Shown here in pieces: positions 85 through 44,631 of a DNA stretch of 64,000 nucleotides. The notes under the pieces were generated by a model. It did not search any database. It was given only the letters and a program-made list of their open reading frames with translations, and had not been told where the DNA came from. Position 1 is the first letter of the stretch. Each line of letters begins with the position of its first letter. The stretch comes from Mastigias papua (lineage: Eukaryota > Cnidaria > Scyphozoa > Rhizostomeae > Mastigiidae), in NCBI GenBank assembly GCA_964019165.1, contig OZ025278.1:1800378-1864377 (forward strand). The letters are read 5' to 3'. The position numbers and the translations under genes are program-made.

Positions 85-1166
85 TTAAGCTCTCGATTCG
101 TGGTTTACGAAACTTTCTTCATAACAGAGATTGCTGATACCAGCATTGAAATCTTCTTTACCAACGGGACTCTCATTCAATGATTTCGATTCAACACCTG
201 GATCTGGCTTTACATCTTCAACAGTCAAGCCCACAGATGAGGGGCACTTATGCATCTCTTCTGCCCCATCATCATTCATTGCAACCTCCTCAGATCCACA
301 AGTGCCATCTTCATTCGATTCCATGATGTCAACCGGCTTCTTTGCGTTCACTTCTGCACAATCGCCATCTGCCAGGTAATTCTGAACTACAATCTCGGCA
401 TTTTTCACCACTGGCTCCTCCTCATCCTCTCTTTGCAACCCAGTACCAAAGACTTTAACATAGCGCTCTTCTTTATCTTCTTCCTTGCAATTTTTACTTG
501 ACTTACATTCTGACTTACCTGCTTTCGCATGTTTTGATAGACATTGAAATACATCTTCCTTTGCATTGCGTCTATTAACTTCAATCGAAATGATTTCTTC
601 ATGACTTGAACTCTTCTTCAGAACCTCTTTTATATCATCACATTGTCGGTCATCTTCTAGTTCTTCATAATCACCAAATAAACTCAAATTAACTTTTCCC
701 AACTCCAATGCTCCTGCAGCTTCACTCTCCATTTCTGATTTTGCCTTATCTTCCTTCTGTTTACGTCTAATCACCACCAATGATATGATGGCCAAAATTA
801 GTGCTAAACCAGCAAAAGATCCAGCCAATGAGGCTGTGAGTGTCAGATTACCTGGAAAAAGGCAAAACGAGGTCTAGTATGCGTGAGATCAATTTTAAGA
901 ACATGGAAAAATTAGCAAAATGTACCATACCTCATATCTACGTAGAGTCTGTATTGGCTGTCAGGAGGAAATCGAGAGAAAGAATGAAATTATTGATAAA
1001 TAAGCAAATCAAGCATTAGCTTACCTATAATTTGGCCGGAATTTGGTGGCTGTGTGTTTGTCTGCGTATTTGTTGATGTGGAACTTGTTGTCTTGGGATC
1101 ACATTCAACACTGCCAGTCGATTCTCCTTCTCGATGGCATTTTCCAGATATGATGCAGGTTTTTGC
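85..1166 (-). CDS. Gene A exons 31-32: stalk, transmembrane helix and cytoplasmic tail
   Basis: Exon 1025-1166 (142 nt, phase 0 to 1; [15 protein letters not shown], then a Thr/Ser-rich stalk) joins the last exon 85-851. That exon encodes a hydrophobic helix (about residues 2265-2287, [20 protein letters not shown]), a stop-transfer RRKQKEDK and a 227-residue acidic, cysteine-containing tail ending in TAA at 87-85. The juxtamembrane block ([17 protein letters not shown]) and the last residues ([11 protein letters not shown]) recur in gene B. No kinase, death or TIR domain is visible, so any signalling would rely on short motifs. Confidence 0.85.

Positions 1167-44631: not shown

Follow-up and report, generated by a model that had tools for sequence, protein, structure and literature searches.

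The window analysed here, a 64,000-nucleotide stretch of the Mastigias papua genome (C15:1800378-1864377, in a 15.9-Mb contig; unprefixed positions below are those of the window), contains a two-module VWDE-like gene, hereafter gene 1. When the exon chain was rebuilt, 32 exons on the minus strand formed a single open frame with no internal stops, and all internal exon ends were GT/AG; the remaining two frames of the same exons held 118 and 230 stops. The predicted protein has 2511 amino acids from the ATG at 44622 and 2514 from an in-frame upstream ATG at 44631, and the stop codon is at 85-87. The rebuild on the minus strand bore out the original prediction of 32 exons and one continuous 2514-residue frame, which is the length obtained from ATG 44631. 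The exon-chaining program combined generic splice scores with codon scores and recovered most exons of gene 1, but it is not an independent predictor, since gene 1 exons chosen by eye served to train its codon scores and masking had first been applied to four stretches, made up of retroelement frames and a simple repeat. Four spurious joins had to be corrected by hand: one where the VWD of module A begins, one in the VWD of module B, the join from 15433 to 14069, and the intron from 12929 to 1166. Three small VWD exons that the program had missed or misread (30824-30748, 29355-29295, and 18048-17985) could be positioned because their DNA is conserved in other copies.

The domain order of the protein is a signal peptide, three CUB domains, four EGF domains, a D8C domain, two VWDE-type cores, one transmembrane (TM) helix, and a tail of about 225 amino acids. 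The signal peptide is encoded by exon 1 (44556..44622, with the alternative ATG just upstream), and CUB 1, 2, and 3 by exons 2 (43803..44129), 3 (43162..43500), and 4 (42079..42411), respectively, whereas EGF 1-2 lie in exon 5 (40778..41035). EGF 3-4 follow in exon 6 (40095..40352), which is entered in phase 1, the two parts of the D8C/D10C domain in exons 7 (39329..39490) and 8 (38230..38436), and a linker in exon 9 (36724..36786). Module A comprises an Ig_VWDE domain in exon 10 (36193..36443) that ends in exon 11 (35880..35975), a Calx-beta-like domain in exon 12 (34675..34992), a diverged VWD in exons 13 (30748..30824, where TDPY replaces GDPH), 14 (29295..29355), 15 (27219..27407), and 16 (26806..26930, with the GLCG motif lost), a helical region in exon 17 (25881..26340), more helix with a teneurin-type EGF and the start of an IPT-like domain in exon 18 (24733..25116), the rest of that domain in exon 19 (24247..24486), and a closing NTC motif in exon 20 (21898..22006), which ends in phase 1. 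Module B is joined to it in phase 1 and repeats this order, with Ig_VWDE in exons 21 (20410..20657) and 22 (19951..20046), the Calx-beta-like domain in exon 23 (19444..19770), the VWD in exons 24 (18687..18760, with GDPH), 25 (17985..18048), 26 (17325..17510), and 27 (16357..16583, with GLCG), the helical region in exon 28 (15433..15874), the teneurin-type EGF and the IPT-like start in exon 29 (13686..14069), and the IPT-like domain in exon 30 (12929..13183). The terminal NTC motif and a Ser/Thr-rich stalk are in exon 31 (1025..1166), and the TM helix and cytoplasmic tail in exon 32 (85..851). The names Calx-beta-like, IPT-like, and NTC are our own and were assigned by eye.

For the Pfam scan, the protein was divided into five pieces and matches at E <= 0.01 were considered. 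The head gave E-values of 2.1e-45 for the three CUB domains, 1.8e-20 for the four EGF domains, and 1.5e-11 for D8C_UMOD (PF23283), which precedes the core in module A only. Ig_VWDE (PF25776) was recognised in module A (1e-11) and module B (3.9e-12), and VWD (PF00094) in module B (5.4e-14). The module A VWD gave no Pfam match at E <= 0.01; it is homologous to the B-type VWD (46-50% identity over one exon) and has lost GDPH and GLCG. EGF_Teneurin was found in both modules, the module B copy scoring just under the cut-off (24.0 vs. 24.3 bits). The helical VWDE region PF26129 was unreported at E <= 0.01, and the corresponding region aligns to the PF26129-carrying region of P0001, a relative described below. 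Besides the signal peptide, a single TM window was detected, at residues 2259-2287; the protein has 129 cysteines and, before the membrane, 40 N-glycosylation sequons, and its cytoplasmic tail showed no Pfam match. Because module B is without its own D8C and EGF pair, the two modules are two Ig-VWD-helical-EGF-IPT cores and not two complete VWDE copies. The three CUB domains, four EGF domains, TM helix, and tail originally predicted were found again; the claim of two modules holds for the cores and fails for full VWDE copies; as an InterPro-type check, Pfam returned CUB, EGF, D8C, Ig_VWDE twice, and the module B VWD, but did not recognise that of module A.

Splicing across the 11.8-kb (12929 to 1166) and 3.9-kb (34675 to 30824) introns is assumed in this model, as both have retroelements inside. 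Ty3-type frames lie at 5550-10357 on the plus strand, between exons 30 and 31, and matched reverse transcriptase, RNase H, and integrase in Pfam, with a zinc knuckle just under the cut-off. The same intron contains an 867-aa open frame (2509-5112, minus strand) with no Pfam match at E <= 0.001. A LINE-type frame with endonuclease and reverse transcriptase occupies 31155-34154 on the minus strand, in the intron between exons 12 and 13. Long simple-repeat or minisatellite arrays were observed in gene 1 introns at 13261-13443, 27497-27828, 30902-31049, 36924-37046, 37304-37469, and 41398-41779. Scans of the whole window for tRNA genes and Rfam families gave no matches.

The comparison was extended to the flanking 50 kb below the window and 70 kb above it; 10 kb of these flanks is N. 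The neighbour below, gene 0 (about -17980 to -47156 in window positions), matched all 31 exons of gene 1 that were sought, in identical order; the signal exon was treated apart, and its 67 nt have a conserved 67-nt counterpart in gene 0 (a 59-base match, E 1e-4). The matches for each half came from a half of gene 0 that had been fixed in advance. Splice sites were at exactly the homologous place for 29 of 31 acceptors and 29 of 30 donors. The two acceptors that missed, at CUB 1 and the tail, each lie no more than 12 bases from an in-frame AG, and the missed donor, that of exon 31, had been extrapolated from an alignment over 24 of 47 residues. This agreement is far beyond chance, given local frequencies of 0.058 for AG and 0.059 for GT, although related sequences cannot be treated as independent samples. 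A codon comparison of 27 of the 32 exons, which left out exons 13, 14, 22, and 25 as well as the signal exon, covered 2336 aligned codons and gave a dS of 0.597, a dN of 0.155, and a dN/dS of 0.26; per exon, dN/dS was between 0.05 and 0.43 in every one where it could be computed. Exons 19 and 20 stood apart, with dS of 0.12 and 0 between the two genes, compared with 0.51 and 0.65 for the flanking exons; exon 19 is almost identical and exon 20 identical to its gene 0 counterpart, and the intron preceding exon 20 also shows partial conservation. This near-identical IPT/NTC patch (24486-21898 in gene 1 and about -36196 to -37186 in gene 0) looks like the product of gene conversion.

The two cores of gene 1 belong to different types. 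The first VWD exon reads CQSTGDPH in five of five B cores and CSSTTDPY in all four readable A cores, and in gene 1 the GDPH motif is accordingly present in module B and replaced by TDPY in module A. In a tree of nine cores from these genes (core M5 of gene 2 omitted) and ten relatives, the four A cores grouped on a long branch (0.97, support 100/100) inside a jellyfish group (100/100), the nearest row outside that group being P0001 (92/97, below the starred level). The tree was unchanged after a stray 27-residue piece was removed from the M6 row. We had considered that module A might have lost its first VWD exons, as no GDPH exon was seen there; this was ruled out, since diverged exons conserved with gene 2 are present. 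The motif bears on processing. In section 2.4 of a study of FCGBP (PMC10880436), a His-to-Asn mutation of GDPH stopped cleavage at Asp-Pro. Transmembrane SUSD2 is described as cut at GDPH in PMC6696261, where a section heading states that the fragments remain disulfide-joined and the abstract suggests a serine protease and not self-cleavage. From the FCGBP mutant, and from the presence of GDPH in B and TDPY in A, cleavage at Asp-Pro would be expected in B cores and not in A cores.

Above the window, upstream of gene 1, lies gene 2 (52760 to about 125081, minus strand), whose C-terminal part (52760..63411, minus strand) consists of the last exon of module 5, module 6, the TM helix, and the tail. 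Gene 2 has six cores followed by one tail: M1 and M2 are of the B type, M3, M4, and M5 of the A type, and M6 of the B type again, with M5 only partly readable. A truncated core 5 was considered and not upheld, the stretch for its missing exons reading N. In front of the cores are four CUB-like exons, the first matched in part, and all matched exons were free of stops; the EGF pair and D8C were not detected for M1. Between M3, M4, and M5, 2.4-4.4% of synonymous sites differ and the N/S ratios are 0.40-0.54 (13 exons for M3-M4 and seven for the pairs with M5), so these cores were duplicated recently, with no sign of positive selection. The EGF exons were entered in phase 1 in all seven cases checked (genes 0 and 1, M2-M6), and the NTC exons were left in phase 1 in all seven checked (genes 0 and 1, M1-M5), so a core unit could be added or lost in frame.

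The tandem set extends further. A search of 346.8 Mb in 172 contigs with the PF25776 profile, in which match counts are lower bounds, gave at least 22 exon matches, at least 18 of them on C15 and at least four on C20. Those on C15 spanned 1,707,241 to 2,292,904 (~586 kb), all on the minus strand and 17 of 18 over the cut-off, and they included all ten cores found by hand. The tail exon matched at least four times genome-wide, in genes 0, 1, and 2 and at C15:2078540. With two cores in gene 0, two in gene 1, and six in gene 2, the unusual part of gene 1 is the repetition of the core, which is common to the tandem cluster and not peculiar to this gene. On C20, four further Ig_VWDE matches (13638937-13744696, plus strand), ~29-47 kb apart and with one stop in each, form a second small tandem set. 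Contig C121 of the same assembly (214,761 bases) carries five COX1-like matches, some in each orientation; three are almost full length and contain a single TGA apiece, and the contig is either an array of nuclear copies or sequence of another organism. COX1 on a 16,455-bp contig of this genome reads well with code 4. Among the best 120 of 7999 scored records, its top named matches were Cassiopea (94%), Acromitus (89 and 88%), and Aurelia (88%), with one further record at 100%, which places the animal among the scyphozoans, near Cassiopea and probably in the rhizostomes.

An alternative reading of gene 1 is a pair of neighbouring genes, the first for a secreted protein of CUB, EGF, and module A that would end after exon 20, the second for a membrane protein with module B that would start near 20657. 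Module B is without EGF and D8C, reading through past exon 20 reaches a stop after ~13 codons (ORF 22006-21860), and a hydrophobic ATG frame opens at 21150. However, gene 0 keeps the A-to-B order and the splice sites, and only 795 bases separate its exons 20 and 21; the intron there and that of gene 1 (1240 bases) share no sequence at E <= 0.05, and the hydrophobic ATG frames within them are at unrelated places, whereas the signal exon at the front is conserved. Moreover, the tail query matched nowhere between cores, gene 2 places six cores before a single tail, and the end of exon 20 and the start of exon 21 are both in phase 1. We consequently rejected the split, on the grounds of gene 0, gene 2, and no conserved start between the cores, and consider it very unlikely. 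An assembly artefact or pseudogene might be suspected from the retroelements within two introns, but every exon is open, the splice sites are conserved, and dN/dS is 0.26; splice conservation and dN/dS ruled it out, and we give it almost no credence. The genomic comparison gives strong support to gene 1 being one two-module gene for a putative type I surface protein.

VWDE is best known from appendage regeneration in vertebrates, reportedly through work by Leigh in 2020; this context is also cited in PMC9117669 and PMC8930769. To place gene 1 among its relatives, protein searches, which reach only relatives with shared exact words, were run and gave 4 and 38 proteins, 41 of them different, and the 19 with a VWDE-type Pfam domain were examined. 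A C-terminal hydrophobic window was present in 12 of the 19, including Hydra, other cnidarian, nemertean, and mollusc proteins (the single window of P0001 being doubtful), and in none of the three vertebrate ones. Close in layout was P0007 (EukProt gene8755-14781_t, 2001 aa), whose CUB1-3, EGF 1-4, and D8C are collinear with residues 33-582 of gene 1 (40% over 550 aa), and which also has a VWDE core, a TM helix, and a short tail. It differs in having one core found, extra CUB-like sequence in front, and a tail of 36 residues; gene 1 thus shares the collinear head and the order of core, TM helix, and tail with P0007, but not the single core. P0001 (EukProt gene8757-14783_t, 1868 aa) likewise has CUB domains, two EGF domains, D8C, and a VWDE core, but one core was found, and its C-terminus looks by eye like a broken gene model. 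Two CUB domains, a core, and a TM helix were found in P0012 (JGI contig). Hydra vulgaris P0009 and P0010 share D8C, Ig_VWDE, VWD, the helical region, a TM window, and a tail with gene 1, and carry a C-type lectin domain instead of CUB domains; P0009 has two D8C stretches (by eye) and one core. The vertebrate VWDE proteins P0002 and P0003 have D8C-Ig-VWD-helical-EGF-IPT-NTC in the same order, but with a long C-terminal EGF array, no TM window, no CUB, TDPH in place of GDPH, and one core. Since gene 1 has a TM helix and a ~225-aa tail and is without the C-terminal EGF array of the secreted vertebrate type, we did not file it as a vertebrate-type VWDE. The membrane anchor is not special, given the 12 of 19 relatives with a C-terminal hydrophobic window and the CUB-EGF-D8C-core-TM layout already found in P0007. 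The earlier view that VWDE is secreted, and that CUB domains and a membrane tail make a different architecture, consequently holds against the vertebrate proteins only and not against these relatives. A search for the architecture among relatives found all of it in P0007 except the repeated core, which was seen in none of the 19; the core-EGF regular expression used is a weak test for repeats elsewhere, as it found one copy in nine relatives and none in ten, compared with two in gene 1.

More distant systems share single elements. Uromodulin and GP2, which are ZP polymer proteins, have the D8C/D10C domain of their decoy module in common with gene 1 and, to our knowledge, no VWDE core. FCGBP resembles gene 1 in having many VWD units per chain, most with GDPH, but is a secreted mucus protein built of D assemblies, and we know of no CUB or TM helix in it. 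It has 13 VWD domains, 11 of them with GDPH, according to PMC10880436. VWDE is included in the D10C decoy-module alignment shown in PMC8930769, and in PMC9117669 VWDE is contrasted with Equinox of planarians, and the class that bears VWD is described as secreted. Receptors of this kind are not treated in the retrieved portion of a survey of cnidarian pattern recognition (PMC8260672), and no description of this architecture was found in titles and abstract starts of the open-licence PMC articles listed. A fold prediction of P0012 from an 18-row alignment had a mean pLDDT of 67.2 and a pTM of 0.54, with pLDDT mostly > 70 at about 270-690 and over much of 780-1080 and poor values in the CUB domains. 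Among the 50 best PDB matches listed for this model, the top 43 were D assemblies of mucins, VWF, or FCGBP; the NCX1 Calx-beta domain was rank 44, with the matching part of the model unstated.

In the cytoplasmic tails, we noticed after the fact an N-x-x-[YF] motif in genes 0, 1, and 2 and in 11 of the 12 relatives with a TM window, P0024 being the one where it was missing. It is at position -15 in genes 0, 1, and 2 and, as N-x-x-F, in P0007. By tail shuffling, the motif was expected with a probability of 0.07-0.52 per relative and 0.43 for genes 0 and 1.

With exon structure, domain order, a single TM helix, the tail, purifying selection, and tandem paralogues demonstrated, the most economical function for gene 1 would be that of a long type I surface adhesion or recognition protein. 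We think it probable that this single-pass protein arose by in-frame duplication of a core, has a cut B core, and bears an adaptor-binding tail. An older CUB-EGF-D8C-core-TM receptor would most likely have had its VWDE-like core duplicated in frame; each unit of the array begins and ends in phase 1. The three CUB domains, four EGF domains, and D8C may form a ligand-binding head and the two cores a disulfide-rich stalk. The membrane-near B core, with GDPH, is expected to be cut at Asp-Pro and to stay disulfide-linked afterwards, as in other GDPH proteins, and the A core, with TDPY, would remain uncut and serve as a spacer or second binding surface. The N-x-x-Y near the end of the tail could bind a PTB-type adaptor, for signalling or uptake, and a change in core number would be expected to change reach and avidity.

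The same gene shape can be read in two other ways. As a structural adhesion or mesoglea-anchoring molecule, with the repeats as spacers and the tail reaching the cytoskeleton, it would fit the purifying selection across the gene, the suitability of repeated cysteine-rich cores for a long stalk, and the one-core membrane relatives in cnidarians and some bilaterians; core multiplication and recent turnover, though, would be unusual for a house-keeping adhesion molecule, and this possibility seems to us somewhat doubtful. A role in immune or self/non-self recognition, in a tandem family in which individuals would differ in the number and sequence of cores, is suggested by the same-strand cluster with at least 18 Ig_VWDE matches, the three near-identical cores of gene 2, the conversion-like patch shared by genes 0 and 1, and the capture of bacterial FimH by the D8C domains of GP2 and uromodulin reported in PMC8930769. 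Positive selection between cores, which we looked for as evidence of immune use, was not found: the ratios were 0.40-0.54 for the young cores, and dN/dS between genes 0 and 1 also spoke against it. We regard such a role as unlikely. The surface adhesion or recognition protein with a duplicated core remains our preferred reading.

A bolder proposal, to which we assign a rather low probability, is that the C15 cluster is a recognition-receptor system diversifying through in-frame gain, loss, and conversion of whole VWDE cores, with two core types, a cleavable B and an uncut A. If true, receptors would vary in length and specificity from one individual or species to another, and this jellyfish cluster would parallel, in principle though not by sequence, the variable clusters of allorecognition or immune receptors that other animals have. 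The VWDE core serves here as a building block that has been multiplied in frame, both inside surface receptors and across tandem genes, with one core type having lost GDPH, and the contrast between secreted and membrane VWDE proteins is a vertebrate-centred one. Side-by-side genes with differing numbers of building blocks make this locus a good place to study the evolution of modular receptors and, if transcripts confirm them, these genes would offer a system for studying how receptors lengthen, how GDPH cleavage is lost, and how such proteins may be used for recognition in jellyfish.
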